From: Holophagae bacterium
GTDB lineage: Bacteria; Acidobacteriota; Thermoanaerobaculia; Thermoanaerobaculales; Sulfomarinibacteraceae
Reading direction: 5' to 3'
Assembly (NCBI GenBank): GCA_003105185.1
Contig: PQAJ01000245.1
Coordinates: 1 to 35,252, forward strand
DNA: 35,252 nt
Below, one piece after another: positions 18,002 to 35,252 of this stretch (positions are counted from its first letter, which is position 1; each line of letters opens with the position of its first letter). The notes beneath the pieces were generated by a model. It worked only from the letters and a program-made list of their open reading frames with translations. It ran no database searches and was not told the origin of the DNA. A program made the position numbers and the translations under genes.

Positions 18002-18027
18002 CCAGCCCTCTCGCCGGCGCCGCGGGC

Positions 18028-18339
18028 CTAATCGGCCTGGGCTGCCTGGCGCAGCACGTCTTCGTTGTACCAGACTGCCTCGAGGACGGCCTGCCACGTC
18101 CACCCCTGGGCCAGCAGCCGCTCCGTCAGCATGAGCTGCGTGCTCGTCTCGTTCGCGAGGGTCGCCAGCAGGTCGGAAAGCAGGTCCGAGCCTTCCGGGC
18201 CGAGCATGTCGTTGAGCTGTACCTCCCGTTTCTGCGCGATGGCGCGGTACGCCAGCGTAGCGATCGCCATGCGCCGCGTTTCCAGGTCGCGCGGGAGTGC
18301 CCGGCGTTCGTAGGGTGCCGTACCGCTGCTCTCGGCCAT
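18028..18339 (-). CDS. Hypothetical small alpha-helical protein
   Basis: 103-aa ORF MAESSGTAPYERRALPRDLETRRMAIATLAYRAIAQKREVQLNDMLG...; occupies the intergenic space on its own. Confidence 0.55.
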   Translation of the reverse strand: MAESSGTAPYERRALPRDLETRRMAIATLAYRAIAQKREVQLNDMLGPEGSDLLSDLLATLANETSTQLMLTERLLAQGWTWQAVLEAVWYNEDVLRQAAQAD

Positions 18340-18469
18340 CGGTCATGACTCTCGCGAAAAAGTGGACACATGATCTTTCCGCCCGCCAGGTTCGTCTCTC
18401 GGGGGAAACCCCAACTTCGCATCAAGCCACAGGACTGAGCATTCAACTGGTCCGGGCTATCCTGTCCCC

Positions 18470-18766
18470 ATGAGCGCTGCTCCCACATCTCTGCCCGGCA
18501 CCGTGGTCGACGAGGAGACCCTTCGCCGCCTCATCCCGCCCTACCGGGTCATCCTCCACAACGACGACCACAACAGCATGGACCACGTCATCCTCACGCT
18601 GCTCCGCTGCGTCCCGGCGCTCGCCCCGGAGGATGCCGAGCAGATCATGTGGACGGCCCACACCCACGGCCAGGCCACCGTGATCGAGTGCCCGAAAGAA
18701 ACCGCGGAACACTACCGCAACTGTCTTGAATCGGCCGGCCTGACCGCCACCATCGAACCAGCCTGA
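18470..18766 (+). CDS. clpS: ATP-dependent Clp protease adaptor ClpS
   Basis: PPYRVILHNDDHNSMDHVILTLLRCVPALAPEDAEQIMWTAHTHGQATVIECPKETAEHYRNCLESAGLTATIEPA matches the ClpS fold signature. Confidence 0.93.
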   Translation: MSAAPTSLPGTVVDEETLRRLIPPYRVILHNDDHNSMDHVILTLLRCVPALAPEDAEQIMWTAHTHGQATVIECPKETAEHYRNCLESAGLTATIEPA

Positions 18767-18832
18767 CCTTTCCCTTCTTTCCTGCTTCCTCTTCCCTCTT
18801 TCCTCCCGACCGTTACCCTTGCGGGTACACGC

Positions 18833-19375
18833 ATGACCGAACCGAACTGCCACTACTGCAACCGCCCGGCCGAAGCTGAGTGCCCCACCTGCGGCCGGCT
18901 CTACTGCGCCGAGCACGGCGACGACGTTTGCCTGCGCTGCATGTCCCCCGAATCGGCCACGCCGAGCGCGCTCGTCTACCGCGGCTCGGTGCTGACGCTG
19001 GTCATCGCGTCGCTCGTGGCGCTCTTCCTCGTCCTCCGTCCACCCGAGAAGGAAACGGATAACGGCGTTGTGCACACCGTCCCCACCAGCACCGCCGCCA
19101 TCAGCGCAACGGCCACGCCCACCCCGCCGGTTACCCGCACCGCATCCGCGACCACCACGGCCGCCGCATCGCCGGGCACATCCCCATCGCCGGCCGGCTC
19201 GCCCACCGCCGCCGCCACCCCCACCCCCGGCACCAGGAGCTACATCGTCCGCGGCGGCGACACGCTTTCCTCCATCGCCGCTGAAAACGACACCACGGTC
19301 GATGCGATCGTCGCCCTCAACCCGGGCCTCGATCCGGACACGCTCGACGTCGGCGCGGAGATCCTTCTCCCGTGA
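18833..19375 (+). CDS. B-box-like zinc finger-TM-Thr/Pro linker-LysM domain protein
   Basis: CHYCNRPAEAECPTCGRLYCAEHGDDVCLRCM; VLTLVIASLVALFLVL TM; C-term SYIVRGGDTLSSIAAENDTTVDAIVALNPGLDPDTLDVGAEILLP LysM. Confidence 0.88.
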   Translation: MTEPNCHYCNRPAEAECPTCGRLYCAEHGDDVCLRCMSPESATPSALVYRGSVLTLVIASLVALFLVLRPPEKETDNGVVHTVPTSTAAISATATPTPPVTRTASATTTAAASPGTSPSPAGSPTAAATPTPGTRSYIVRGGDTLSSIAAENDTTVDAIVALNPGLDPDTLDVGAEILLP

Positions 19376-19896
19376 GCTGGCAGGACGACCCGGAGCTGCA
19401 AAAACAGATGCGGGTGCGCTCCGTCCGCGGGAAGATCCTGCGCTCCGCGATCCTCTGGGGGCCGCTGTTCCTCACTGCCCTCGGCGGCACGGTCTTCTAC
19501 ACCGCCGACATCCTCTTCCTGGACCGCGAAAATGGTGGGACGTGGGTGCTGGTCACCATCGTCGGCATCCTTGCCGTGCTCTTCGGCTTCCAGGCCGTCC
19601 AGGCCGCTCTCGACGTCTTCGACAAGCCCCGGACCGAAAGCGGCTACGTCACCCGGCGCTGGGCCCGCAGCGATTCACTCGTCGTCCGCTCCCACTACAT
19701 GCGCCTCGAACGAAAGATCCTCCGCGGCGACGCCTATCTCCTCGCCGAGATCAAAGAGGGCGACTACGTGGAGGCAACCTACTACTCCCACTCCGCCGTC
19801 CTGGTGTGGGTCGACAAGCGCCCCGAACCCCCGAGGGACGAGACCCAGCCCGGCCCGGACGCCCCACCGTACGGTGATGGCCCGAGCCAGCGCTGA
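19372..19896 (+). CDS. Hypothetical membrane protein
   Basis: 174-aa ORF, GTG start overlapping the previous stop (GTGA); two hydrophobic segments. Confidence 0.72.
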   Translation: MSWQDDPELQKQMRVRSVRGKILRSAILWGPLFLTALGGTVFYTADILFLDRENGGTWVLVTIVGILAVLFGFQAVQAALDVFDKPRTESGYVTRRWARSDSLVVRSHYMRLERKILRGDAYLLAEIKEGDYVEATYYSHSAVLVWVDKRPEPPRDETQPGPDAPPYGDGPSQR

Positions 19897-19920
19897 GCAT
19901 CCTCGCGTACAATCCCGCCC

Positions 19921-20667
19921 ATGTCCGAATCCGAGCGCCCCGCCTACCGCACCATCCGCGAATGGGCGGGCGATGAGCGCCCCCGCGAACGCCTCCTCGA
20001 ACACGGCCCCGGCGTCCTTTCCGATGCCGAGCTGATCGCCATCGTCCTCCGCTCCGGCATGCCCGGCGAAAACGTCGTCGACATGGCTCGCGGCCTGCTC
20101 GAATCAGTCGGCGGGCTCAGCGGGCTCGTGCGCGCCGACCCGAAGGTGATCCAGCGTTCGCGCGGGCTCGGCCCGGCCAAGGCCGCCCAGGTCGCCGCCG
20201 CCATTGAGCTTGGCCGCCGCGCCCAGCAGCTCGACCCCGCCGACCGCCCCGTCCTCCTCCGCCCAGACGCGGTCTTTCGCCTTCTCGGGCCGCGCCTCGT
20301 CGGCCGCCGCCGCGAGGAGTTCTACGTCCTGCCGCTCGATACCCGTGGCCGGCTGCTCGGCTCGATCTCACCCACCAACGGGGGCGCCGCGAACTCGGTC
20401 GCGGTCCGCCCCGCCGAGGCCTTCCGCGAAGCCATCATCCACGATGCTGTTTCCGTCGTCATCGCGCACAACCACCCCTCGGGCGACCCCCGCCCGAGCC
20501 CTCAGGACATCGCCGTCACGAAGAGTCTCATTGCCGCGGGAAAGCTGCTCGATATCGAAGTGCTGGACCACCTCGTCATCGGCGCGGGCAGTTATGTCTC
20601 TATGCAGCGCGAGGGCATGGCGTTCGAGCGCATGGGCAGCGCCCGAGGGATGGCAGCAGAGCGATGA
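19921..20667 (+). CDS. radC: RadC family JAB/MPN-domain protein
   Basis: IREWAGDERPRERLLEHGPGVLSDAELIAIVLRSG, RGLGPAKAAQVAAAIELGRR, AHNHPSGDPRPSPQDIAVTKSL JAMM motif. Confidence 0.95.
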   Translation: MSESERPAYRTIREWAGDERPRERLLEHGPGVLSDAELIAIVLRSGMPGENVVDMARGLLESVGGLSGLVRADPKVIQRSRGLGPAKAAQVAAAIELGRRAQQLDPADRPVLLRPDAVFRLLGPRLVGRRREEFYVLPLDTRGRLLGSISPTNGGAANSVAVRPAEAFREAIIHDAVSVVIAHNHPSGDPRPSPQDIAVTKSLIAAGKLLDIEVLDHLVIGAGSYVSMQREGMAFERMGSARGMAAER

Positions 20668-20819
20668 AGGCGTCCCTGGTTTCCCATAGCCCCCACCTAT
20701 GGCTCCCTCCGCTCCTATCCGCTGGCATCGGGTACTCCGCCTCCGTACAATGACGAAACCGTGCACTCCGCGGGCCGCGCGTCGGCGGCACCCCGGCACT
20801 CCGCACTCAGGATTGAACA

Positions 20820-21995
20820 ATGGAAGATGTCGTCATTACCAGCGGCGTCCGGACTGCCATCGGCAAGTTCCAGGGCTCCCTCGCTGATGTCCCCGCCTCC
20901 GACCTTGGAGCGCACGTCATCCGCGAGGCCGTCGCCCGCGCGGGCATTGCCCCCGAAAACGTCGACCAGGTGGTCATGGGCATCGTCGGCCAGGTCGCCG
21001 AGGATGCCTACCTCTCCCGCCACTCAACCGTGAAGGCGGGCCTCCCCATCGGCACACCGGCCATGAACGTCAACCGCATCTGCGGCTCGGGCCTCGAGGC
21101 CATCAACACCGCCTCCCGCCTCATCCAGAGCGGCGACGCGGAAGTCGTGGTTGCCGGCGGCGCCGAGAACATGACGCGCATGCCCTTCTACCTGCGCAAG
21201 GCGCGGGCGGGCTACCGCCTCGGGCACGATAGCGTCGAAGACGGCATCATCCACATGCTCAGCGACCCCTTCAAGGGCTACCACATGGGCATCACCGCCG
21301 AGAACCTGGCCGACCAGTTCGAAGTGAGCCGCGCGGCCCAGGACGAGTTCTCGGCCGAGAGCCAGCGCCGCGCCATCGCCGCCATCGAAGCCGGCCGCTT
21401 CGTCGACCAGATCGCCCCGCTGACTGTGAAAATCGGCCGCGAGGAGAAGGTCTTCGATGTCGACGAGTACCCCCGCGCCACCACCGTCGAGGCTCTGAGC
21501 AAGCTCCGCCCGGCCTTCAAGGAAGGCGGCGTCGTGACCGCCGGCAACGCCAGCGGCATCAACGATGGCGCTGCCGCCCTCACCGTCATGAGCGCCTCAA
21601 AGGCGAAGGAACTCGGCGCCACCCCGCGCATGCGCATCGTGGCCCGCGCCGAAGCCGGCGTGGACCCGTCGATCATGGGTAGCGGCCCCATCCCGGCCAT
21701 CCGCAAGGCGCTCGCCAGGGCGCAGATGACCCTCGACCAGGTCGACGTCATCGAGCTGAACGAGGCCTTCGCCAGCGTCTCCTGCGCCTGCAGCAGCGAA
21801 CTCGTGCTGGACCCGGCCAAGGTGAACCCGAACGGCGGCGCGATCGCCCTCGGCCACCCGCTCGGCGCTACCGGCGCAATCCTGACCGTGAAGCTCATGC
21901 ACGAACTGGAGCGCACCGGCGGGCGCTTCGGCATCGTCAGCCTCTGCATCGGCGGCGGCCAGGGCATCGCCACCATCTTCGAGCGCGTCAGCTAA
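20820..21995 (+). CDS. Thiolase family protein, acetyl-CoA C-acetyltransferase
   Basis: NRICGSGLEAINTASRLIQSGDAEVVVAGGAENMTRMPF, ELNEAFAS, NPNGGAIALGHPLGATGA, SLCIGGGQGIATIFE. Confidence 0.96.
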   Translation: MEDVVITSGVRTAIGKFQGSLADVPASDLGAHVIREAVARAGIAPENVDQVVMGIVGQVAEDAYLSRHSTVKAGLPIGTPAMNVNRICGSGLEAINTASRLIQSGDAEVVVAGGAENMTRMPFYLRKARAGYRLGHDSVEDGIIHMLSDPFKGYHMGITAENLADQFEVSRAAQDEFSAESQRRAIAAIEAGRFVDQIAPLTVKIGREEKVFDVDEYPRATTVEALSKLRPAFKEGGVVTAGNASGINDGAAALTVMSASKAKELGATPRMRIVARAEAGVDPSIMGSGPIPAIRKALARAQMTLDQVDVIELNEAFASVSCACSSELVLDPAKVNPNGGAIALGHPLGATGAILTVKLMHELERTGGRFGIVSLCIGGGQGIATIFERVS

Positions 21996-22015
21996 GCGCT
22001 CGCAACTCGCAACAA

Positions 22016-22048
22016 CGAAACAGTCCGCCCGATGGGCGGCCTGTTTCG
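22016..22048. terminator. Hairpin between thiolase and PIN-domain genes, probable bidirectional terminator
   Basis: CGAAACAGTCCGCCC-GAT-GGGCGGCCTGTTTCG, 14/15 bp paired, 21 bp after the thiolase stop. Confidence 0.75.
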
Positions 22049-22061
22049 TTTCGGGGATGGC

Positions 22062-22487
22062 TTATGCCGGTTCGATGGCGCGGAGACCCGGGAACCGCTG
22101 GAACCCTCGGTCGAAGGTCACGAACGTGGCGTTGTTCTCGATTGCGAAGGCGGCCAGGTAGGCGTCGCTGACGTGCGGGCCGGTAATCCCCGATTGGAGG
22201 CAGATTCGTTCGAAGAGTCCCCAGTGCCGTGGTCCTTCGTGGAGAGCGACCGCTGCAGGCGTAGCAAGAAGCACTCGCACTCGCCGGAACGCCAGCTCCG
22301 GCGAGTGCGGCCCGCCGAAAACCCGCGGATTGGTCGAAATGCGGACGAACGCGCTCAGAACCGGCCCTGGAATCCCGACAAGCTCATGACCATCGCAGGC
22401 GTCTCTCAACCAGGCCCTCGCGACCCGGTGGTGTGCGAGGTCATAGAACTCGGCGGACAGAAGGATGTTGACGTCAGGGACGAGCAA
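22062..22487 (-). CDS. PIN domain toxin (VapC-like)
   Basis: MLVPDVNILLSAEF...HHRVARAWL...SDAYLAAFAIENNATFVTFDRGFQRFPGL; PIN acidic residues present. Confidence 0.9.
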   Translation of the reverse strand: MLVPDVNILLSAEFYDLAHHRVARAWLRDACDGHELVGIPGPVLSAFVRISTNPRVFGGPHSPELAFRRVRVLLATPAAVALHEGPRHWGLFERICLQSGITGPHVSDAYLAAFAIENNATFVTFDRGFQRFPGLRAIEPA

Positions 22488-22806
22488 ATGGCCCCTCGAC
22501 CTCGTCGATCAGTTTGGAAATGCTTTCAAAACTGAGGCCGGGTGCCGGCTCGCCGTGATGCGGAGGGGGCAATTCCCACTTCCCTCGCAAGCGTTGCTTG
22601 GATTCCACCTCAGCGATGAATGCCACGACGGCCGCAGGGTCGTTCCGGTCGATGTGCGCGGGTATTTCCCAGTCACCTGACCATTTGGGCGCGATGAATT
22701 CCCGCAGGGCCCGTTCGAGCAGGGCGGTAAGCGTCGTCCCCTCCCGGACCGCCATGATCTTCGCCTCCTTCAGGAGATCGTCATCGATATTGAGCGTGGT
22801 ACGCAT
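22474..22806 (-). CDS. Type II antitoxin (VapB-like, ribbon-helix-helix)
   Basis: MRTTLNIDDDLLKEAKIMAVREGTTLTALLERALREFI; 14-nt overlap with the PIN gene. Confidence 0.88.
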   Translation of the reverse strand: MRTTLNIDDDLLKEAKIMAVREGTTLTALLERALREFIAPKWSGDWEIPAHIDRNDPAAVVAFIAEVESKQRLRGKWELPPPHHGEPAPGLSFESISKLIDEVEGPFARP

Positions 22807-22931
22807 ACAGGCAGATTAGCATATCGCTGTACGCCGGCCGCTGCTCTCCCCCCTTTCTCCACCTCCACTGGCCGTTTGGACTTCGGACTTCGCCGGGGTC
22901 TGGGGTGCTGGGGGCCCGAGCCTTCGAGGTG

Positions 22932-22970
22932 GTGACATCGCAGCGCGCCATCCCTGGCGCGCCTCGGATG
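22932..22970. repeat. REP-like dispersed repeat, copy 3 (core only)
   Basis: GTGACATCGCAGCGCGCCATCCCTGGCGCGCCTCGGATG; palindrome GCGCGCCA-TCCC-TGGCGCGC at 22943-22962. Confidence 0.85.
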
Positions 22971-23051
22971 CGACGGCCGGCGCTCCTCGCTTCTCCCTTC
23001 CACCTCCTCCCCCTATCCTCCGGCTACATCGCTCGCCCGGGAGGCACCACC

Positions 23052-23825
23052 ATGTCCAACCTCTTCGATATCTCCGGCAAGGTCGCGCTCGTCACCGGCG
23101 GCTCCCGCGGCATCGGCCTCATGATCGCCCGTGGCTTCGTCGAGGCCGGCGCGAAGACCTACATCTCCTCCCGCAAGGCGGACGTCTGCAACGCCGTCGC
23201 CGCCGAGCTCTCGAAGACCGGCGAGTGCATCTCCATCCCAGCCGACCTGGGCACCGAGGCCGGCTGCCGCTTCCTCGCAGGGGAGATCGCGAAGCGCGAG
23301 CCGAAGCTCCACATCCTGGTGAACAACGCCGGCGCCACCTGGGGCGCTCCCATCGCCGACTACCCCGACGATGCCTTCGACAAGGTGATGAACCTGAACG
23401 TGAAGGGCATCTTCCACCTCACCCGCTTCCTCCTGCCCCAGCTCGAAGCCGCCGCCAGCGCCGCCGACCCGGCCCGCGTCATCAACATCGGCTCGATCGA
23501 CGGGCTCCAGGCGCCCGCGATGGAGACCTACGCCTACTCATCAAGCAAGGCGGCGGTCCATCAGCTCACGCGCCACCTCGCCCACAACCTGGCGCCCCGC
23601 AAGATCATCGTGAACGCCATCGCCCCCGGCCCGTTCGAAAGCAAGATGATGGCCGAGACGCTCCAGCGCTTCGGCGAAGGCATCCGGGCGAGCAACCCCC
23701 TCGGCCGCATCGGCGAACCCGACGACATGGCCGGGACCGCCATCTTCCTGTCCTCGAAGGCGAGCGCCTACATCACGGGCGCCGTCATCCCCGTCGATGG
23801 CGGCATCTCCACGCGCCACCAGTAG
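23052..23825 (+). CDS. SDR family oxidoreductase (3-oxoacyl-ACP reductase-like)
   Basis: GKVALVTGGSRGIGLMIARGF, LVNNAGATWGA, YAYSSSKAAVHQLTRHLA, C-term AYITGAVIPVDGGIST. Confidence 0.95.
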   Translation: MSNLFDISGKVALVTGGSRGIGLMIARGFVEAGAKTYISSRKADVCNAVAAELSKTGECISIPADLGTEAGCRFLAGEIAKREPKLHILVNNAGATWGAPIADYPDDAFDKVMNLNVKGIFHLTRFLLPQLEAAASAADPARVINIGSIDGLQAPAMETYAYSSSKAAVHQLTRHLAHNLAPRKIIVNAIAPGPFESKMMAETLQRFGEGIRASNPLGRIGEPDDMAGTAIFLSSKASAYITGAVIPVDGGISTRHQ

Positions 23826-23879
23826 CTTCCGCTTCAGAAACCGGCCCAAACCGCCGACCAACGAGGGTGGAGGCGCCCC

Positions 23880-25940
23880 ATGCAGTTGAACCGCTCGTTC
23901 GGCGGGAGCACGAGCGCACGAGCGTTCGCCCTGGCCCTTTTCCTGGCCGTCGTGCTCGTTGCCACAGGGCGCGGCGCCGGGGCGGCTGGCCCCGTCACCC
24001 GCACCTGGACCGGCGACGGCGCCAACGGGAACTGGACCACCCACGCGAATTGGAACCCGGCGGCCCCCAACCCGGGGGACATCCTCGTCTTCCCGGCCGT
24101 GGCGGCGCGCAAGTCCAACACCAACGACTACCCGGCCGGCACCGTCTTCACCGAGCTCCGGTTACAGGGTTCCGGGTACGTCCTCGGGGGCAACCGCATC
24201 GAGCTGCTCCACGGCCTGAACAACACGCCAGTCCCGGCCGGCACGAACACCATCAACCTGGTGCTGGATGGCGAGGGCGGCATCACGAGCCACGGCGGCA
24301 CCCTCAACCTCATGGCCCACAACCTCCACGATGGCATGACCTCCGTCTTCGGCGGGACCGTGCACGCCGGGCACAACAACGCCTTCGGCCAGTTCAGCGC
24401 GACCGTCGACGTCCTCGCCGGGACCGTATCGCTGGCTGATGGCGTGACCATCTACAACCCGCTGATCATCGGCGGTCCGGCGAGCCCCGCACTCAAGGCG
24501 CTCGGCGATGCAGCGTGGGACGCGCCGATCTCCGTCTCGGGCCATTCCACCTTCGACGCTGTGCAGGGGGCCACGCTCCGGCTTCCCACGTCGATCTTCG
24601 GCCCCTTTGGCATCCTCAAGACTGGCCCGGGAACCGTGGTGCTTTCCGGTGAGAACACCTTTTCGGGCGCGCTCACGGTGGCCGAGGGCGTCCTCAGCGT
24701 CACCCGCCCCGAGGCCCTGGGCAGCCCCTTCGGCGGTACCGTGATTGATGGTGGCACGCTTGAGTTCGACGTAGCCCTCATGGCCGAGCCCATCACCATC
24801 AACGGCGATGGGCACGATGGCGGCGGGGCTCTGCGCAGCCTGTCCGGTATCAACCACCTGGGCAACGTCCTCATCGATAGCGACGCCACGGTCACCGTCG
24901 TCGAGGGCACCCTCCGCCTCCCGAACGGCATCGACCAGGCCGGAGAGCACCTCACCCTCACCATGACCGGCGACGGCACCCTCGAGATCGAGGACGGGGG
25001 CGACTTCGACGGCACCATCGCCGTCCTCGAAGGCTGGCTCTCGGTCCGTGGTGACCTGCTTGCCTCGGTCGATGTGGATGGTGGCGAACTCAAGGGCGAC
25101 GGAAGCACCGGTTCGGTCCGTCTCCTCGGCGGGTGGCTGACGCCGGGTATCCACGGGACCGGCACCCTTACGGTGGAGGGTGACTTCGAAGCCGGCCCCG
25201 AGGGTAGCGTTCACATCACGATCGATGCCGGGAACTCCTACACCGCGCTGCGCGTCACCGGCCTCGTGTCGCTCGAGAGCCCCACCCTGTGGATTGACGG
25301 CGACGGCGATGTCCCGCTGGGCGGGACCGTCACGCTCATCGAGAACACCGGCCCCGCGCCGATCAATGGCGAGTTCGCCTTGCGTGAGGAGGGATCCGAT
25401 CTGATCGTCGGTGAGACCACCTTCTTCCAGATCACCTACGCGGGCGGCCCGGACCCGGCCAACGATATGGTCCTCGCGCCGCTCCCGCCTGACTCCGCCG
25501 ACGCGGCGCTAGCCCTGCTGAGCACACCCCAGGGCGTGCCCTCGGGCGGGCAGGTGCCGCTGGTCTTCCGCGCCACCAACGCCGGGCCCGATGCGGCTAC
25601 CGGCCCGGAGGTAACCATCACGGCCGGTGCTGGCCTTGCGTTCGTCTCGCTGACGGCCCCCGCGGGCTGGGGCTGCCAGACCCCGGTCGTCGGGGCGCCG
25701 GGCGACATCGTCTGCACGCGCCAGGCGCTTGCACCCGGTGAGGCCGGAGACTTCCATGTCGTGTTCTCCGTGACCGCCGCGGCGGGGGCGAGCGTCGTCT
25801 TCACCGGCCAGCTCACCCACGCCTCGGCCGAAGAGGACCCGGCGGACAACGCCGTCGATGTCTCCGTTGGCGTTTCGCCCGCCGGGCAGCAGCCGTTCCG
25901 CCGTGCCCTCCCCGGGCTCGCCAGCGACGGCTCCTGGTGA
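23880..25940 (+). CDS. Secreted surface protein with autotransporter-type beta-strand repeats and C-terminal DUF11-like domain
   Basis: Signal peptide; RTWTGDGANGNWTTHANWNP; LKTGPGTVVLSGENTFSGALTVAEGVLSV; C-term ATNAGPDAATGPEVTI. Confidence 0.87.
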   Translation: MQLNRSFGGSTSARAFALALFLAVVLVATGRGAGAAGPVTRTWTGDGANGNWTTHANWNPAAPNPGDILVFPAVAARKSNTNDYPAGTVFTELRLQGSGYVLGGNRIELLHGLNNTPVPAGTNTINLVLDGEGGITSHGGTLNLMAHNLHDGMTSVFGGTVHAGHNNAFGQFSATVDVLAGTVSLADGVTIYNPLIIGGPASPALKALGDAAWDAPISVSGHSTFDAVQGATLRLPTSIFGPFGILKTGPGTVVLSGENTFSGALTVAEGVLSVTRPEALGSPFGGTVIDGGTLEFDVALMAEPITINGDGHDGGGALRSLSGINHLGNVLIDSDATVTVVEGTLRLPNGIDQAGEHLTLTMTGDGTLEIEDGGDFDGTIAVLEGWLSVRGDLLASVDVDGGELKGDGSTGSVRLLGGWLTPGIHGTGTLTVEGDFEAGPEGSVHITIDAGNSYTALRVTGLVSLESPTLWIDGDGDVPLGGTVTLIENTGPAPINGEFALREEGSDLIVGETTFFQITYAGGPDPANDMVLAPLPPDSADAALALLSTPQGVPSGGQVPLVFRATNAGPDAATGPEVTITAGAGLAFVSLTAPAGWGCQTPVVGAPGDIVCTRQALAPGEAGDFHVVFSVTAAAGASVVFTGQLTHASAEEDPADNAVDVSVGVSPAGQQPFRRALPGLASDGSW

Positions 25941-25950
25941 CGCGGCGGGC

Positions 25951-27663
25951 TCAGTCCCTGGCGACCCCCGGCACATAGAGCTTGTACGGCCGCGGGTCAG
26001 GCGTGCCGATCGGCGTCACCACGGTCGCGCTGTTGTCCACGCTGTCCTGGTCGGTGGTCTGCGCGAACGTACCCACCGTCGCCGAAATGGGCTGGTTCCT
26101 GCCGGCATCCACCCGCACCACGATGGTGATGCTCGCCGAAGCCCCGGATGCGAGGTTCGGGCCCGTGCAGCTTACGCTCGAGGAGCCAGAGGGCGACGGC
26201 TTCACACACGTCCACCCCGCGGGCGCGGTCACCGATTCGAATGTCGTCCCGCCGGGTATCCCCATGGAGACCCGCGGCGAAGCGGCGGAGTCGGGCCCGG
26301 CGTTGGTCACCGTCGCCGTGTAGGTGAGCAGGCCGCCCGGCGAGGCCGTCGCCGGCTGCACCGAAAGCCCCGCCGCCAGGTCCGCGTTCACCCGCCGGAG
26401 CACCGTCAGCACCACGTCGTTGCCGGCGCCGCCCGGCCCTTTGTACGAAATGCCGAAGACCAGCCCGCCGGCCACGAAGGTGCTCCCTTCGGGCAGGCCG
26501 TAGAACGTGCCCTGCACCGCTCCGCTCCCGGAATTCTTGATAATCGTGAAGGTGTTACCCACGCTCGGGACGAAGCCCAGGTCGATCTCGAGCAGGGTCG
26601 CGTTGCTGGCCAGGCTCACCAGCCCGTCCACGCTGAGCTGCCCGTAACCCGTCCCCGCGGCCGTCCCGTCCAGGTCCACCTTGAAGCGACCGCCGTTGAA
26701 GATGGCGTTCCCAGCGGTCGCCAGGATGCCCGGCGACGAACCGGACCCCGGCCACACCAGCCCGGCCGTAACGTCGATGCTCCCGGCCGAACCCGTGCCC
26801 CGCAGCCACCCATCGCGCAGGACGGTCGCCGTGCCCGGGGTCGAGCTGTTCCAGGTGAGATTGCCGTGCTCGGCGGTCACCGGCCCGGCAAACGTGCCCA
26901 TCCCATCGACCTGGAGTTTACCGCCGCCCACGAGCGTGAGGCTCGCGCCCGGCGCTGCCTGGTCGAGCCCGCCCAGCACCAGAGTCGATTGGCCCACGCC
27001 GATGACCACCGGCCCGCTGAGGGTGACCCCGGCTGCGGAGTTCGTGCCCGACAACGACTGCAGCGCGCCCCATCCGCCAACGCCCGCCCCGGCGAGCAGC
27101 ACGGGCTCGTTGCCGATGCCGGTGAACCCGGAGAGCTGGAGCGTGGCGCCCGCCGAGACAGTGGTGCCCGCCGTATCGGCGCCCAACCCCCTGTCGTCTG
27201 TTACCAGGAGCGTCCCGCCAGTGACTGCCGCCACCGCCGTGAAGGTGTTGGCGCCGGTCAGCGCCATCCGTCCCGAGACCTGCGCGACACCGCCCCCGCC
27301 GCCGACGGCCATCTCCACAACGTTCGTGTCGCTCGAGGGGCTCTCGTTGCGCAACTCGCCCGTCACATCGAAAGCGGCTCCCTGCAGCCGGTAGCCGCCG
27401 CCGGTGAAGCGCACGGTGTCGAACACGAGTCCCGCGGCCAGGTTGTTGGTGTTGGTCTTCTGCGCCGCCCCGGCCGGGAACACCAGCGTGTCGCCCGCCA
27501 CGGGGACACCGCTATCCCAGTTCCCCGCGTCGGACCAGTTCGCGGTGGCTCCCGCCCCGGTCCAGGTACGTGTTGCCGCCGCGCTCACGGTCCCGGCGCT
27601 CGCGCCAAGGAGCGCGGCCACCAGCGCCAGAGCCAGCCACCACCCCGCGAATCGCTGAATCAT
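25951..27663 (-). CDS. Secreted surface protein paralogous to the 23880-25940 product
   Basis: RTWTGAGATANWSDAGNWDSGVPVAGDTLVFPAGAAQKTNTNNLAAG; DUF11-like VTNAGPDSAASPRVSM; C-term YKLYVPGVARD. Confidence 0.87.
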   Translation of the reverse strand: MIQRFAGWWLALALVAALLGASAGTVSAAATRTWTGAGATANWSDAGNWDSGVPVAGDTLVFPAGAAQKTNTNNLAAGLVFDTVRFTGGGYRLQGAAFDVTGELRNESPSSDTNVVEMAVGGGGGVAQVSGRMALTGANTFTAVAAVTGGTLLVTDDRGLGADTAGTTVSAGATLQLSGFTGIGNEPVLLAGAGVGGWGALQSLSGTNSAAGVTLSGPVVIGVGQSTLVLGGLDQAAPGASLTLVGGGKLQVDGMGTFAGPVTAEHGNLTWNSSTPGTATVLRDGWLRGTGSAGSIDVTAGLVWPGSGSSPGILATAGNAIFNGGRFKVDLDGTAAGTGYGQLSVDGLVSLASNATLLEIDLGFVPSVGNTFTIIKNSGSGAVQGTFYGLPEGSTFVAGGLVFGISYKGPGGAGNDVVLTVLRRVNADLAAGLSVQPATASPGGLLTYTATVTNAGPDSAASPRVSMGIPGGTTFESVTAPAGWTCVKPSPSGSSSVSCTGPNLASGASASITIVVRVDAGRNQPISATVGTFAQTTDQDSVDNSATVVTPIGTPDPRPYKLYVPGVARD

Positions 27664-27799
27664 CCAATCACCCCCGCCAGGCGTGCTTTGTCATCGTACT
27701 AGACGCTGGCGCCGCCGCAGGCGTTCCTTAACCCCGCCACACCCCCGGTCGCGTCCGTCCCCCGGCGGTCTGCTTGCATCGAAGCCCCCTGGAAGCCCC

Positions 27800-29074
27800 T
27801 CACAGCACTACTCGCTCCTCGATCACCCTCGACCACTCGGCCGCCGGATCGTCGCTCCCCAGGTTGGCCGCGGCCGTGCGGCGCGACTGGATGCCCGCCT
27901 CCACCAGCGAACGCTCCTCGGCCACCTGCCGCGAACGGTCGACCGGGAGGATCGGGCCCCAGTGCATCACGGGGCGCACCGCCCCGGTCTCGAGCCCCGT
28001 GAACTGCGCGAGCAGCCGCAGCACCAGTTCGGCCCGCCGCTCATAGACCGCCGTGCGGATGCGCTGTTTGCGCGCCACCTTGCGCGCAATCGGGTCGAGC
28101 TCGGTGTTCAGCGCGACGCCGCTGAGCCCCTGCGGGTTGTGCCCGAACGCCGTCCGGGGAGACTCGCCGAGGTCGTGCAGCGTGCGGTAGACCAGGTCGA
28201 TGTACTCGCGGTGGAGGGCCACGCCCCCGCCCTGCAGGAGGTCGAGCAGGTACGCCTTCGCGCTCTCTGGCACCTCCCACACCGCGCCCGGTTCGACCGC
28301 GATGTCCTGCGAGCCGTGCACTCCTTCGAGGACCGCGATGGGGTTGCCCGAGAGCTCCAGGATCTGGCTGAGCTGGCTGTAGGCGCGGTTCAGTTCGCGG
28401 CTCGATTCGATGAGCGCCGGGATGTCGCTCGCACCCCACGGCTGCTTCGGTTCGCGCACGTTCGGGAAGAGGACGAAGGGGATATGGCCGTAGGGGTTGG
28501 GCTGCCGTTCGGCCAGCTCGTTTCCGCGCCAGAGCTCGAAGGCGGCCGCGGTCCAGTACTCGGTCACCAGGTCCTCGGGGCGTTCGGAAGCGCCCGGGTC
28601 CGGCGGCAGGCGGTACTGCGAGGCGAGCGCGGTCAGCCGCGTGGGGTCATCCGGCTGGCGCCACGCAAAGATGCCCTGCACGTCCGGGGCCGTCACCCGC
28701 ACCTCCGCGGCCCCGGCATCCCACGACACGCGGTAGCAGGCATCGCCGAGGACCGCGCAATCGAGCTCGGTCTCGTAGTCGAGCTGGGCGAGGGCGTTGG
28801 CCTGCTCCACCGCGCGAAAGGCCCGTTCCGCCCGGCGCGCGCGCTCCGCGCCCTGTTCGCCACCTTCGAGCTGGAGCGATGAGCCGGTCAGCAGGTAGCT
28901 GGTGACCTTGTCGACGAGCGCCTTCGCGTAGTTGAAGGTGAGGCGCCGTTCGCCACGGCGCGCCCGCCCGGGCCACTGGCTCCCCTGGTAGAAGGCGAGG
29001 TTGTCGCGGTAACGCTGGCGGCGGTCTTCATCGAGCCGCTGGAGGAGGACGGGCAGGGGCGTGTCGTTCGGCAC
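27800..29074 (-). CDS. Phage portal protein (SPP1 gp6-like)
   Basis: RYRDNLAFYQGSQWPGRARRGERRLTFNYAKALVDKVTSYLLTGSSLQLEG...PEDLVTEYWTAAAFELW...NPYGHIPFVLFPNVREPKQPWGASDIPALIESSRELNRAYSQLSQ...SGVALNTELDPIARKVARKQ; GTG start at 29074 proposed. Confidence 0.85.
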   Translation of the reverse strand: MPNDTPLPVLLQRLDEDRRQRYRDNLAFYQGSQWPGRARRGERRLTFNYAKALVDKVTSYLLTGSSLQLEGGEQGAERARRAERAFRAVEQANALAQLDYETELDCAVLGDACYRVSWDAGAAEVRVTAPDVQGIFAWRQPDDPTRLTALASQYRLPPDPGASERPEDLVTEYWTAAAFELWRGNELAERQPNPYGHIPFVLFPNVREPKQPWGASDIPALIESSRELNRAYSQLSQILELSGNPIAVLEGVHGSQDIAVEPGAVWEVPESAKAYLLDLLQGGGVALHREYIDLVYRTLHDLGESPRTAFGHNPQGLSGVALNTELDPIARKVARKQRIRTAVYERRAELVLRLLAQFTGLETGAVRPVMHWGPILPVDRSRQVAEERSLVEAGIQSRRTAAANLGSDDPAAEWSRVIEERVVL

Positions 29075-29341
29075 GGGCTGGCTCCGGTTGAAGAAGTGCC
29101 GCCACCGTGCGCGGCGTGGCCTGCTGCTCCAAGGGCCGGATGTCTCGCCAGCCGGGGTGCAATCGCGAATCGTGAATCGGAAATGGTGGTGGGGCGTGGC
29201 CGGGTGGCCGGGGCGGCCGGGCGGGGACTCCTCCCTTCTTACCTCCTCGCTCCTCCCCACTCTTCCCGGTTTCTTTCTCCTTTCCTTCCGCCAAACCGGG
29301 GGCAAACGTACACTCGGGCTACATTCGCCCCCGGAGCTCTT

Positions 29342-30097
29342 ATGCCACGCCGGCTCGTGCTGGCCCTCTGCGCCTGTACTCTCGCTCTCCCGGCCTTCGC
29401 AGCATGCGGCGGCGACGGGGGCGCTTCCGACACCGCTGCCGGTACTACGGCGGCGAGCAACACGCCGAACGGCGCCAACCCCGGCGCCTCGCCCGCGCTC
29501 GATGGGCCCGCCAGCAAATACTCGGTCGCCATCGATGACCTCGGCGTCAACTGGATCACCGACATCCCGTTTACGTTCGTGCTGGACATCGAGAACTACG
29601 CCCCGACACGGACGTTCCCCTCGGCCGATGAAGGCCGCACATTGCTGAACGAGTGGGGCTACCAGAGCGGCTACGAAACCGGCTACTCGCCCGAGGGCCG
29701 CGACACCGCCGTCCTCAACGGCGCCTTCTACGTCCGCGTCGAATCGCACCTTTTCGAGACCGAGAAGGGCGCCATGGCGGCCATGGCCTACTTCGAATCC
29801 ATCATCAAGTCCACCGGCGCCAGCCCAATCAGCGCCGCCGCCGTCGGCAACGAATCAGCCGCCTACACCGCCACCTTCGGCACGATCGGCAAGTCCAAAG
29901 TGAACGCGGTCTACCATCACGTCATCTTCCGCCGCGGCAACCTGGTAACCGTGGTGCTCACGAAGGGCGCGGAGGGCTTTATGAAGGTCGAACCGGCCCG
30001 CGAGCTCGCCCTGATCGCGGATGCGAAGGCCCTGGGCCAGAAGCCGGCCATCGAACCAACCCCCACCAGCAACTACACGCCGGCGGCCGGCAACTAA
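29342..30097 (+). CDS. Secreted protein/putative lipoprotein with uncharacterised ectodomain
   Basis: Signal peptide MPRRLVLALCACTLALPAFAACGG; C-terminal region paralogous to the ectodomain at about 30840-31420. Confidence 0.8.
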   Translation: MPRRLVLALCACTLALPAFAACGGDGGASDTAAGTTAASNTPNGANPGASPALDGPASKYSVAIDDLGVNWITDIPFTFVLDIENYAPTRTFPSADEGRTLLNEWGYQSGYETGYSPEGRDTAVLNGAFYVRVESHLFETEKGAMAAMAYFESIIKSTGASPISAAAVGNESAAYTATFGTIGKSKVNAVYHHVIFRRGNLVTVVLTKGAEGFMKVEPARELALIADAKALGQKPAIEPTPTSNYTPAAGN

Positions 30098-30108
30098 CCG
30101 GAGGCGCG

Positions 30109-30249
30109 ATGCGCAAGAACCAGCCCCATCAGGTGTCCGTGAGACAACGACACCGGCGGTGGGCCAGCGAGATTGGGAGGTCCTCGATGAACCGATTTGA
30201 ATCGCTCCAACAAGGGCTTCCCTGCGCTACCGAGGCAGAGTCCGACTGA
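30109..30249 (+). pseudogene. Short ORF MRKNQPHQVSVRQRHRR...TEAESD*, possible relict 5' end of the downstream membrane-protein gene
   Basis: GGAGG-N5-ATG; KNQP start in frame with and repeated at 30658-30669; stops just before the J-domain ORF. Confidence 0.35.
30115..30127 (+). repeat. 13-bp direct repeat AAGAACCAGCCCC, left copy
   Basis: Exact match to 30658-30670, distance 543 nt (181 codons). Confidence 0.9.
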
Positions 30250-30258
30250 GAGGAACCT

Positions 30259-31440
30259 GTGGACCAAGACCCGTATGAGCTGTTGCAGGTCTCACCGAAC
30301 GCGAGTCTGGGAGTCATCGAGGCTGCCTATCGGCGTCTCGCCAAGACTTACCACCCCGACAACGTGGCAACGGGGGACTCGGATCGATTCAAGTCTATCC
30401 AGGCAGCCTACGAGTTGCTGCGTGACCCCGCCGCCCGAGCTCAGTTCGACCTCGGGCGCGGCCCACGCCAGAAGACTCCGCCGCGAGCCGAAGCGTCAGG
30501 GTCGTCTTCGACCAGCGCGGGCGGGCAGGGAGACCGCGGCGGGGAACAAAAACGACAAGGTGACGAAACCGCCCGGAAGACTTCCGGTGCGACTGGGGAT
30601 CATTCGACACGGGAGGCTAGGCCTTCGCCCCGGCGAGTGGAGCGCGCTGCACTCGCTAAGAACCAGCCCCTCCTGATCCTTGGCGCCGGCCTGGTGTTGC
30701 TCGCCATGGCCGTCGTCGTCATTTTTCTCCTCAGCGGGAACAATGACGGCGACCCGGACGTTAGTAAGACCGTGAACGGCAACAAAGGCCCCGCGAGCAC
30801 GGGCGGCACCCTCGGCGGCCCCGAGCCCATCGCCCAGCTGCCCGCCTCGAAGTACATCCCCCTCATCACCGAAGTCCCCGGTGAAAACGAGGTCAACGTC
30901 TCCGACACGTTCACCATGAACATCACGACCTTCACCAGCTCCTACTGGTTCATCAACGACCAGGAAGGGCAGGACCGCGCCCGCGAGTGGAAGATCGTCG
31001 ACGGCTACCAGGTCTACTACCAGCCGGTCGGGCTTTCCGCCCAGGTCCTCCAGGGCGACTTCTTCACGACCATCGAGACGTACCTCTTCGCCGACGTGGA
31101 GGGCGCAAAGGGCGCCTATACCCACCTCGCGAAGAAGATTGGTTCGCTGGCGGGCACGGAGGTCGAGAAGCCCCGGGGCCTCGCCAACGAATCGTCCGCG
31201 TACAGCCTGGTACAGGGCACGGTTGGGGTCTCGGATGTTGCGGCGGTCTACCACCGCTTCATCTTCCGCAGGGGCAACGCGGTCGTCAGCGTCCAGACGT
31301 ACGGCGGCGAGCCGTTCATGACCATCGACGAGGCGCGCGAGCTTGCGGTTATGATTGACGACAAACTCCTCGGCCAGCGCCCGGCCACGGAGCCCACGCC
31401 CATCCCGACCCCGGCAATCATCGGGGTAGATGCAGATTGA
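30259..31440 (+). CDS. J-domain (DnaJ-like)-TM-ectodomain protein
   Basis: DPYELLQVSPNASLGVIEAAYRRLAKTYHPDN...FKSIQAAYELLRDPAARAQFD (HPD motif); TM LLILGAGLVLLAMAVVVIFLL; C-terminal domain paralogous to the upstream lipoprotein. Confidence 0.9.
   Translation: MDQDPYELLQVSPNASLGVIEAAYRRLAKTYHPDNVATGDSDRFKSIQAAYELLRDPAARAQFDLGRGPRQKTPPRAEASGSSSTSAGGQGDRGGEQKRQGDETARKTSGATGDHSTREARPSPRRVERAALAKNQPLLILGAGLVLLAMAVVVIFLLSGNNDGDPDVSKTVNGNKGPASTGGTLGGPEPIAQLPASKYIPLITEVPGENEVNVSDTFTMNITTFTSSYWFINDQEGQDRAREWKIVDGYQVYYQPVGLSAQVLQGDFFTTIETYLFADVEGAKGAYTHLAKKIGSLAGTEVEKPRGLANESSAYSLVQGTVGVSDVAAVYHRFIFRRGNAVVSVQTYGGEPFMTIDEARELAVMIDDKLLGQRPATEPTPIPTPAIIGVDAD
30658..30670 (+). repeat. 13-bp direct repeat AAGAACCAGCCCC, right copy
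   Basis: Exact match to 30115-30127. Confidence 0.9.
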
Positions 31441-31465
31441 GCGGATAGAACCGCGGGGAGGTTGT

Positions 31466-33673
31466 GTGCGCGCGCGATGGCTGGGCATCCTTGCCCTCGT
31501 TCTGGCCGCGACCACAGGAGCGGCAACCAATCACCTGGACGGCGCGGACGTCAGTGCGGCTGCCCCCGAGGCGTACGTCGACGTGCAGTTCGATACCGGC
31601 GTCTCGGCCCAGCAGCTGCGCGCCGACGGGCTGCCACCCACCCTCGAAGAGCAGGGCTTCCGCCGCCTGGCGGTGCCCCCCGGTAGGACTGCCGATGACT
31701 ACCTGGCCGAGCTGCGCGCCCGCCCGGACGTCATCTCCGCGGTGGAGGACGCGCCGGTGTACGCCGCCGGCCTCCCGAATGACCCGTATTACGGCCCGAA
31801 CCAGGCGCAGTACCTGGCGCTGACGGGCGCCCCCGGCGCCTGGGACATCCACACCGGCTCGAACCAGGTCATCGTCGCGGTCATCGATAGCGGCCTGGAT
31901 GTCACCCACCCGGAGTTCGCCGGCCGCCTCTGGGAAAACCAGATAGACAACAAGAGCGATGGCGTCGACCGCGACGGCAACAAGTGCACGAACGACCGCT
32001 ACGGCTGCCGCTACGTCTCGCTGACGACCGCGAACGCCGCCCTCTGCGGCTACACCAGCTCGCTGCCTACCGGCCAGGTCCTGGACGACATGGGTTCATC
32101 GCCCACCAACATCGGCAGCCACGGCACGCTCGTGGCCGGCATCATCGGCGCCGCCGGGAACAACGGCCAGGGCATCGCCGGAGTCGCCTGGAACGTCCGC
32201 CTGATGACGGTGAAGGTGCTCGATTGCCAGGGCGAAGGCCGCATGCCCGACGTCGCCGACGGCATCGAATACGCAGTCCGCAACGGCGCCCGCATCATCA
32301 ACGTGAGCGTCGCCTCGAAGCCGGGCGACCAGGAGGCCGATAGCCCGCGGCTGCGGGCCGCGCTCCAGCTCGCGCAGGACCAGGGCGTCATCGTGGTGGC
32401 CGCGGCGGGCAACCACCCCCTCGGCTCCGCGCAGGTCGGCACGGCCTATCCCGCCGCCTACACGGAGTTCGCCAACCTCATCGCCGTCGGCGCCTCGAAC
32501 AACCTGAACGACAACATCTGGGCCGCCTATTCGAACTACGGCCCGGCGATCGACTTCGCCGCTCCGGGGAACAAGCTGGTGAGCACCACCCGCACCGATA
32601 TCGGCCTGGCCAACCCCTATGCCGAGATCGGAGACGCCCGCGACGGTTACGACGGCGGCACCAGCTACTCCACGCCTTTGGTCTCCGGGATGTTCGCGCT
32701 CATGATGTCGCGCAACTCGAACCTGTCCGCCGCCGACTACATCAAGGCGGCGCGTGATGCGGCCACCCCGGCCGAGCCCGCGCCCCACGGCCAGAACTGG
32801 GCTGGCTCGGGCATCATCAACATGGCCGCTTCCGTCGCTCGGATTCCCATGTCCATCAGCGGCGCGCCGCTCAAGGACTGGAAGGACGTGCCGGGGGGCA
32901 CCGCGGTCCAGGCTATCGTCGACGGCGCCGAGTGCGGGAGCACGGTTGCCCAGGCATTCGGCCGCGCGAGCACCTACTCGATCAAGGTGAAGAGCGCGGC
33001 GGAGGCGCCCGGCTGCGGCCTTCCCGGCCGGACGGTCCAGCTCTACGTCGCCGGGTCGCCCGCGAAGCCCACCTTCACCTGGGGCGGGGCCAACCAGGAC
33101 CTTTCCTTGCTGGGCAAGGATGTCAGCTCCGTCTCGCCCGGCCCCGGCGCCCTGGTTGTCCAGCAGCTGAACGGCCAGTGGTCGAACATCGTCCACCTGG
33201 AGCCGACCGGGAACCTCCCCGGCGCCGCCCCCGGGCTGCCCACGCCGTGGAACGTCATCTATCGCTGGGACCCGCTCAAGATGTTCCTCGATAAGCCGGG
33301 GGGCTACCGGCGCTTCGCGCGCCTGGCGCCCGCCTATGCGAGCGACTACCTCCAGATCCAGCAGTACGACACCTACTGGGTTGACGCGCCAGCATCGAAC
33401 ATGTCGAGCCTGAACCCGAACCCGCCTCCGGGCCGGACGGTCGCCCTCGAGCCGGGCTGGAACAACTTCACCTACACCGGCACGGCACGGGCAGTTTCCG
33501 AAGCCCTTGCCGGCGTCAAGTACACCCAGGTGCTGCAGTTCGATAACCCGACGAATACCTGGCTGTCGCACCTGCCGGGCCAGCCGCGCTACCTGAACGA
33601 TTTCAACGGGCTCTTCCAGCTCAAGTCCTACTGGGTGTTCGTCACCGAGCCGGCCACGCTCGTGATGAATTAG
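31466..33673 (+). CDS. S8 family subtilisin-like serine protease, secreted
   Basis: Catalytic Asp AVIDSGLDVTHPEF, His GSHGTLVAGIIGA, Ser GGTSYSTPLVSGMFALM; GTG start at 31466 preceded by GGGGAGG (ORF open from ATG 31430). Confidence 0.92.
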   Translation: MRARWLGILALVLAATTGAATNHLDGADVSAAAPEAYVDVQFDTGVSAQQLRADGLPPTLEEQGFRRLAVPPGRTADDYLAELRARPDVISAVEDAPVYAAGLPNDPYYGPNQAQYLALTGAPGAWDIHTGSNQVIVAVIDSGLDVTHPEFAGRLWENQIDNKSDGVDRDGNKCTNDRYGCRYVSLTTANAALCGYTSSLPTGQVLDDMGSSPTNIGSHGTLVAGIIGAAGNNGQGIAGVAWNVRLMTVKVLDCQGEGRMPDVADGIEYAVRNGARIINVSVASKPGDQEADSPRLRAALQLAQDQGVIVVAAAGNHPLGSAQVGTAYPAAYTEFANLIAVGASNNLNDNIWAAYSNYGPAIDFAAPGNKLVSTTRTDIGLANPYAEIGDARDGYDGGTSYSTPLVSGMFALMMSRNSNLSAADYIKAARDAATPAEPAPHGQNWAGSGIINMAASVARIPMSISGAPLKDWKDVPGGTAVQAIVDGAECGSTVAQAFGRASTYSIKVKSAAEAPGCGLPGRTVQLYVAGSPAKPTFTWGGANQDLSLLGKDVSSVSPGPGALVVQQLNGQWSNIVHLEPTGNLPGAAPGLPTPWNVIYRWDPLKMFLDKPGGYRRFARLAPAYASDYLQIQQYDTYWVDAPASNMSSLNPNPPPGRTVALEPGWNNFTYTGTARAVSEALAGVKYTQVLQFDNPTNTWLSHLPGQPRYLNDFNGLFQLKSYWVFVTEPATLVMN

Positions 33674-33764
33674 CGCTGGAATCGCGCCGATACCGTCCGT
33701 TCCCTACCGCCAACCGCGTCGCTCCAAATACCCTCACCGTTCACCTTGCCAGGGGTTCACGGAG

Positions 33765-35252
33765 ATGGACAGTTCGAATTGGGATGTCGTCGTCGTCGGT
33801 TCAGGGCTGGGCGGGCTCACCGCGGCAGCCTACCTTGCCGCGCTCGGCCGCCGCGTCGCGGTGCTCGAACAACACTACGTAGCGGGCGGCAACGCCCACG
33901 TTTTCCGGCGCATGAAGAAGTTCGAGTTCGATGTCGGCGTCCACTACGTCGGTGACTGCGGCCCCAACGGCGGCGTGACCCAGGCCTTCCGAGGGCTGGG
34001 GCTCGATACGAAGATCGAGTGGGTGGAGCTGGACCCCGACGGGTTCGACACCCTCATCTTCCCCGGCCTTACCTTCAAGGTGCCCGCGAGCTGGGACCTG
34101 TACCGCGAACGCCTGGTCGCCGCCTTCCCCGACGACGAGTCCGCCATCCACAGCTGCATCGACATCCTCCAGGCAGTCAACCAGCAGCAGGGCAAAATCA
34201 AGCTCCCCGTCGACCAGGCCGACCTCCCCCGGCTCATGCAGGAGGCGCCCGCCTTTCTCCAGTGGGGCATGCGGACGCTCGGCGACCTGTTCGAGGCCTG
34301 CGGTGTGGGCCAAAAGGCTCGCGCCGTCATCGCCGCCGAGTGCGGCGACTACGCCACGCCGCCTTCGCGCACGCCCGTCGGCCTCCACGCCGGCTTGCTC
34401 AACGGCTACTTCAAGGGCGCCTACTACCCGCGCGGAGGCGGGCAGGTACTGCCCGCGCACCTGGTGGACGTAGTCCGCTCGAACGGCGGCGACGTGCGCA
34501 CCCGCGCCCGCGTCGAGCGCATCCTCGTGCAGGACGGCCGTACCTGCGGCGTGCGGCTCGATACCGGCGAGGAGTTCCACGCTCCGGTGGTCATTTCCAA
34601 CGCCGACCTAAAACGCACCATGCTCGACATGGTCGGCGAGGAGCACATCTCGCCGGCCACCGCCGCGCGGGTCCGCGACTACCGCATGGCCCTGCCCTTC
34701 TTCGTCGTCTACCTGGGGCTCGATATCGACCTGCGCGAAACCATGCCCCGCACCAACTACTGGTACTACGACTCGTTCGACCTCGAAGGCATGTACGCCG
34801 ACGCCACCGAGGGGCGGGTGCCAGAGGACTTCTTCTGCTTCATCTCGGCCGGGTCGGTGAAGGACCCGGAGACAGGCACGATCGCACCGAAGGGGTGCAC
34901 GAGCCTGGAGATCATGACCATCGTGCCAGCGGACCACCGCCTCTGGAGCGTGGAGGAAGGGCCGGTGGCGGGGGAGCGCTACCACCGCAATCCCGGATAC
35001 CGCAGCTTCAAGGACCAGCTGGCCGACCGCCTCATCGAAGGGGCCGAGCGCGTCATCCCCGGCCTGCGCGAGCACATCGTCTGGCGCGAAGCCGCCACCC
35101 CCATCACGCAGGAGCGCTACACCTTCGCCAGCGGCGGCACCTCCTACGGCATCGAGCTCGCCGTCGACCAGTTCGGTCCGGCCCGGCCCTCGCCGAAGAC
35201 GGAGATCGAGGGCCTCTATCTGGCGGGAGCCAGTACGGTCTTCGGCCACGGC
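33765..35252 (+). CDS. Phytoene desaturase/carotenoid isomerase-like FAD-dependent oxidoreductase, truncated by the window end
   Basis: MDSSNWDVVVVGSGLGGLTAAAYLAALGRRVAVLEQHYVAGGNAHVFRR dinucleotide-binding motif; ends LAGASTVFGHG with no stop in the window. Confidence 0.9.
   Translation, partial: MDSSNWDVVVVGSGLGGLTAAAYLAALGRRVAVLEQHYVAGGNAHVFRRMKKFEFDVGVHYVGDCGPNGGVTQAFRGLGLDTKIEWVELDPDGFDTLIFPGLTFKVPASWDLYRERLVAAFPDDESAIHSCIDILQAVNQQQGKIKLPVDQADLPRLMQEAPAFLQWGMRTLGDLFEACGVGQKARAVIAAECGDYATPPSRTPVGLHAGLLNGYFKGAYYPRGGGQVLPAHLVDVVRSNGGDVRTRARVERILVQDGRTCGVRLDTGEEFHAPVVISNADLKRTMLDMVGEEHISPATAARVRDYRMALPFFVVYLGLDIDLRETMPRTNYWYYDSFDLEGMYADATEGRVPEDFFCFISAGSVKDPETGTIAPKGCTSLEIMTIVPADHRLWSVEEGPVAGERYHRNPGYRSFKDQLADRLIEGAERVIPGLREHIVWREAATPITQERYTFASGGTSYGIELAVDQFGPARPSPKTEIEGLYLAGASTVFGHG

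Follow-up and report, generated by a model that had tools for sequence, protein, structure and literature searches.

The window, a stretch of 35,252 nucleotides, was found to carry three adjacent genes that are best read, with about even confidence, as a surface-tethered protease complex of the Tepidiforma order, together with a recent J-domain insertion into the second gene. The ancestral unit would be a three-gene operon encoding two anciently duplicated, membrane-anchored outside proteins and then a secreted S8 protease without an anchor. The two anchored proteins would tether the protease to the cell surface, stabilise it or regulate it there, comparable to PrcB and PrcA for PrtP of dentilisin. 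In the lineage of the contig, a foreign 530-bp piece with a J-domain would have entered after codon 6 of gene 2, duplicating 13 bp and fusing the J-domain in frame with the signal-anchor already present. We infer co-transcription, a physical complex and a role in extracellular protein turnover; at the level of sequence, the comparison of loci showed the cassette itself, its predicted anchors, its catalytic motifs and purifying selection on its genes. For the Tepidiforma order, Tepidiforma flava YIM 72310 included, this would be a surface protease module of three genes that can be put to the test, and its ectodomain family has no name yet.

Three adjacent genes and their products

The genes and domains of the cassette are as follows.

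29342-30097, + strand: gene 1, a predicted lipoprotein with a PknH/TiME-like ectodomain (ORF, signal peptide and LPAFAAC-GGDGG lipobox read from the sequence)
29513-30064, + strand: shared ectodomain of gene 1 (profile match, E 5e-106)
30259-31440, + strand: gene 2 as it stands, J-domain in frame with the ancestral TM anchor and ectodomain
30268-30450, + strand: J-domain (PF00226) with intact HPD (Pfam E 9e-18, residues 4-64, YHPDN)
30670-30732, + strand: ancestral TM segment of gene 2 (LLILGAGLVLLAMAVVVIFLL; hydropathy 3.05; N-terminal anchor in orthologues)
30847-31401, + strand: shared ectodomain of gene 2 (profile match and AlphaFold model)
31466-33673, + strand: gene 3, an S8 subtilase predicted to be secreted (PF00082 E 9.6e-47; Sec signal, no anchor of its own)
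32816-33670, + strand: C-terminal region of the subtilase (~285 aa), conserved and without a Pfam match

The original prediction had described three consecutive + strand genes for a lipoprotein, a J-domain-TM-ectodomain protein and an S8 subtilase, and all three were present where it had placed them. The product of gene 1 is 251 aa long. In that of gene 2, the J-domain, confirmed by its Pfam match and its HPD, is followed by a basic linker, one TM segment (the single hydrophobic stretch after the J-domain, residues ~138-158) and the ectodomain. Comparison of the two ectodomains (~190 residues) by BLASTP gave 87/238 identities (37%, E 2e-43), a sequence similarity far beyond chance. The ectodomain had been described as shared by all three products; this held for genes 1 and 2, but no link of the subtilase to the domain was found with Pfam and BLAST.

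The longest ORF of gene 3 begins at ATG 31430 and overlaps gene 2. GTG 31466 is probably the likelier start, since it is preceded by GGGGAGG, lies 25 nt past the gene 2 stop, and agrees with the ~25 nt spacing of the starts in relatives; the predicted distance of 26 nt was therefore essentially right. The catalytic triad was located at Asp153/His231/Ser412 (P0003 numbering). The model of the subtilase C-terminal region was of low confidence (pLDDT 64) and too poor for a fold search. No intrinsic terminators or promoters above chance were found at the cassette. Adjoining the cassette on the opposite strand was an SPP1-type phage portal gene (27800-29026, - strand; PF05133 E 2.7e-15, phrog_64), a relative of which, 71% identical, occupied the same place in locus L006; no other phage genes were recognised beside it. 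An ORF of 1649 aa at 13052-18001 on the + strand had no Pfam or PHROG match.

Distribution and conservation of the cassette

The window is assigned to the genome G000, in which the ectodomain was found in the window only. A search of 60 relatives of G000 gave one weak match (E 0.0016), and the profile search of the rest of its class gave no other genome with a match. Contig-wide scanning for the ectodomain retrieved ten loci, labelled mostly Dehalococcoidia or Chloroflexi, Tepidiforma among them. Positions 18000-35252 of the window aligned to G149 (KLAP124) and G150 (CHL9) at 82-93% in the main pieces, with some weaker short pieces, whereas G000's own family (4 genomes) gave short pieces only, at 66-71%. 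Since the DNA is closest to CHL9 and KLAP124, both of the Tepidiforma order, the contig probably derives from a bacterium of that order and was mis-binned in G000, which was rejected as the true host. A search for rpoB in G000 did not find it.

The survey sampled one genome per species, with larger groups sampled by draws, and its locus counts rested on our own ORF calling with inferred gene starts. Of 393 genomes in the class, 33 were matched by the ectodomain profile, built from 19 sequences, and 23 Dehalococcoidia genomes had an adjacent ectodomain pair. All 23 were among the 38 genomes listed for the order of G150 (CHL9) and Tepidiforma, which belongs to the Chloroflexota. Matches outside that order were single and distant, and a 400-genome sample of the phylum added three further, weak ones. 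The third gene was a subtilase in every other locus with room for it (20/20), the contig ending before that point in L005, L119 and L129. Flanking genes were mostly unshared among the ten loci compared by crude ORF layout. The proposal of a candidate envelope system thus stood as to a conserved three-gene set with a shared ectodomain, but not as to Hsp70 coupling as its principle: the ectodomain pair beside a subtilase was conserved in relatives, while a J-domain was sought in the other cassette loci and detected in none.

Gene 2 ectodomains formed one tree branch (support 96/83) and gene 1 domains were not interleaved with them, so the duplication that gave rise to the pair is, by this tree, old and precedes the spread of the order. 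Between close relatives, dN/dS was 0.07-0.15 in the two ectodomain genes and 0.10 in the subtilase gene, showing, within these comparisons, purifying selection on the cassette genes. A lipobox was seen on gene 1 in most loci that include its N-terminus, and orthologues of gene 2 had a TM anchor or a lipobox. The Asp, His and Ser triad motifs were present in all 18 full-length subtilases checked. The subtilases carried a Sec-like signal, and in the 18 relatives there was no lipobox at the signal end and no C-terminal TM segment; the one lipobox motif match, in L011, fell within the signal core. Distant single ectodomain proteins without a detected subtilase (L120-L123, L125-L128) suggest that the domain can act alone.

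Two side observations were made among these genomes. In Tepidiforma flava (L007 11080-12222), a second ORF follows the full-length subtilase gene and resembles the subtilase C-terminal region (61% over 283 residues), as if that part had been duplicated. In G156, two more distant ectodomain proteins (L126 7740-9083 and L127 7164-8195) had extra C-terminal parts without a Pfam family.

Ectodomain fold and comparison with known proteases

The AlphaFold model of the gene 2 ectodomain was confident (pLDDT 88.1, pTM 0.87), and Foldseek gave the PknH sensor 4esq as its best PDB structure match (E 9.9e-7, probability 1.00, TM 0.47-0.51, rmsd 11.8). With TM-scores of about 0.5 and a high rmsd, this predicted resemblance is partial and of superfamily level. 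The soluble domain of TiME also matched (7cu8/7cu9, E about 1e-5 to 1e-4), and LpqN, DcrB and Mog1 did so far more weakly. By sequence, Pfam, NCBIfam, PADLOC and PHROGs gave nothing useful for the ectodomain and the PDB gave no match; PF14032 (PknH_C) matched none of 19 ectodomains at E <= 1 and exceeded its cut-off nowhere in 245 genomes of the class. A search of viral folds returned a single match at E < 0.001, which with a TM of 0.25 was not meaningful. In these searches the domain mapped to no named sequence family, and its modelled fold is in part PknH/TiME-like. Its description as new was borne out as to Pfam and NCBIfam, but the modelled fold resembles that of a mycobacterial sensor, and it was otherwise matched here by mycobacterial envelope proteins.

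That one domain occurs both in a TM protein and in a free lipoprotein has a known parallel, since the PknH-type fold has already been described in receptors and in free lipoproteins (PMC3601408). The likeness to PknH_C, to the mycobacterial lipoproteins LppH, LpqA, LpqQ and LprH, and to TiME is one of fold, as predicted here, and the PknH domain of mycobacteria likewise occurs both TM-anchored and as a lipoprotein. PknH differs in having two disulfide bonds, whereas neither ectodomain of the window has any cysteine, and in being a kinase sensor, whereas the cassette has no kinase and is paired with a subtilase. Judged from the model, a PknH-like fold points to the sensing of a ligand no less than to the anchoring of a protease. 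A possible but rather doubtful alternative is a ligand-sensing or lipid-binding pair, in which the PknH-like cleft would bind an envelope ligand and the protease would be the output, or would mature or shed the ectodomains as a release-type switch. The best fold matches, to the PknH sensor, TiME and weakly LpqN, speak for it (PMC3601408), but the conserved cassette holds no kinase or other signalling gene and the fold match of the model is only partial.

The surface-tethered protease complex, our preferred reading, has its closest counterpart in dentilisin of Treponema denticola. In the dentilisin operon, prcB-prcA-prtP, the first two genes encode anchored lipoproteins that have been proposed to keep the protease on the cell surface. 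PrtP protein depends on PrcB (23 kDa), PrcA (70 kDa) undergoes cleavage, both accessory proteins have been described as restricted to oral treponemes, and the system needs a C-terminal domain of ~250 residues (PMC8167434). The cassette has the same gene order, with two surface-anchored accessory genes upstream of an S8 subtilase, and the window subtilase, like PrtP with its ~250-residue domain, has a C-terminal region of its own. The PrtP model NF033595 matched the window protease at E 5e-21 and 75 bits, below its cut-off of 300. PrtP is itself acylated, whereas the cassette subtilases have no lipobox anchor, and the accessory proteins of the window are paralogues with a PknH-like fold, apparently unrelated to PrcB and PrcA. 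From the gene order, the anchorless protease and the constant trio, we propose that the cassette works like dentilisin without being a member of that family. Should the protease depend on its accessory proteins, the dentilisin-type architecture of two anchored helpers and a subtilase would have evolved on more than one occasion, with helpers that are unrelated.

The best NCBIfam match of the cassette subtilases was the mycosin model TIGR03921 (153-171 bits, 157.7 for the window), below its cut-off of 278.75. The likeness is in the catalytic domain, and the window subtilase differs by a long additional region at its C-terminus. Mycosins, the proteases of type VII secretion, are generally anchored by a C-terminal TM segment and located in ESX loci, and neither feature was seen in the cassette.

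The J-domain insertion in gene 2

The following features mark the insertion.

30109-30249, + strand: remnant of the gene 2 5' end (MRKNQP...; in the alignment with L004/L005 the same ATG starts the TM-ectodomain protein)
30115-30127, + strand: left copy of a 13-bp direct duplication, AAGAACCAGCCCC
30128-30657, + strand: 530-bp insertion, consisting of a 131 bp leader, the J-domain and a linker
30633-30656, no strand: 24-nt near-palindrome (11/12 pairs), ending 1 nt before the right end of the insert
30658-30670, + strand: right copy of the 13-bp duplication, AAGAACCAGCCCC

We found that the alignments of G149 and G150 to the window break at 30127 and resume at 30658, and that AAGAACCAGCCCC is a single copy in these relatives (C292:1484-1496 in G149, C122:9857-9869 in G150). 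Bases 30128-30657, the whole J-domain included, were missing from every related locus; in L004 and L005, gene 2 follows gene 1 directly, opens with MRKNQPLLILGAGLVLL... and has no J-domain. The window held 14 unrelated 13-mer repeats at 300-1000 bp spacing, so the duplication counts only because it coincides with the insertion breakpoints. Insert and one repeat together make 543 bp, which is divisible by three, and the reading frame of the J-domain continues across the right repeat into the ancestral TM segment. At 30109, the original ATG now begins a 46-codon stub that runs into the insert and stops at TGA 30247-30249. The J-domain ORF has its GTG 9 nt after this stop, an arrangement in which re-initiation would be possible. 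GC3 of the coding part of the insert was 0.677, against a lowest value of 0.789 among 195 equal-length (399-nt) stretches of neighbouring genes, and by this measure its codon usage is foreign. On these comparisons the J-domain is a recent add-on by insertion and lies outside the working of the system. It clearly illustrates how a domain was gained recently, the unoccupied site being kept in two relatives (G149 and G150).

From the J-domain, the original prediction had inferred that the gene 2 product would link the external domain to Hsp70 in the cytoplasm, possibly in secretion, folding or quality control with the protease. As a principle of the system this was not supported, the J-domain occurring in this contig only, within an insert flanked by the 13-bp duplication. 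Such a coupling as a working secretion or quality-control device is clearly unlikely: the HPD is intact, the J-domain is joined in frame to a suitable type of signal-anchor, the ectodomain of the window branch is still under purifying selection (branch S,N 18,5) and the same order has a separate J-domain-TM-external protein (L030), but the J-domain is absent in all 23 other pair genomes and came with a target-type duplication and foreign GC3, and the coupling cannot be the general function. The case illustrates that a single contig can suggest a link between cytoplasm and envelope that no relative has. DjlA likewise joins a J-domain and a membrane segment in one chain, its TM segment being N-terminal, and it is not known to have an external domain of the cassette kind; the J-domain of gene 2, set against DjlA, came by insertion.

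The evidence for the insertion comes from one assembled contig. That it is an assembly or library artefact, present in no cell, is clearly unlikely: the contig is one of a draft, probably mis-binned assembly and no second copy of the insert was found in the genomes searched, but in a chimaera both junctions would have to fall on the same gene, duplicate exactly 13 bp and, at the right one, leave the reading frame open, and the words used in assembly are usually longer than 13 bp. A very improbable extension is that the insert is a mobile unit with a captured J-domain, which would have given a working receptor-like link from the protease complex to DnaK, a domain gain caught in the act. It draws on the 530-bp size, the terminal hairpins and the 13-bp target-type duplication. 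Besides the near-palindrome, a 6-bp stem begins at about 30132, near the left end; a palindrome as good and as close as that at the right end occurred at 0.07% of window positions, a post hoc observation, and the folding z-scores of the two hairpins were modest (-0.9 and -1.3). An integron cassette was rejected, as the 13-mer and its complement hold no GTTRRRY by eye, and two Rfam matches on the insert (HIF1 IRES and FMN) were weak, far below gathering scores and attributed to chance.

No DNA source of the insert was found in its own genome or in the 38 genomes listed for the order, nor among plasmids, phages and viral contigs, and the J-domains of relatives were at most about 51% identical to that of the window. 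G307 (L141), with 79% over 72 bp, was rejected as the source: its J-like protein lacks HPD and is only 46% identical. J-domains beginning YEVLQVSPxAxxEVIEAAYR stand at the N-terminus of membrane proteins in the Tepidiforma order (L030 and L042), which suggests that the donor may have been of this kind. As a separate observation, L030 (1474-2361), L040 and L042 of the order were seen to have a J or J-like domain at the N-terminus, linked to membrane segments; L042 and L141, both without HPD, have a cysteine-rich stretch followed by several TM segments.
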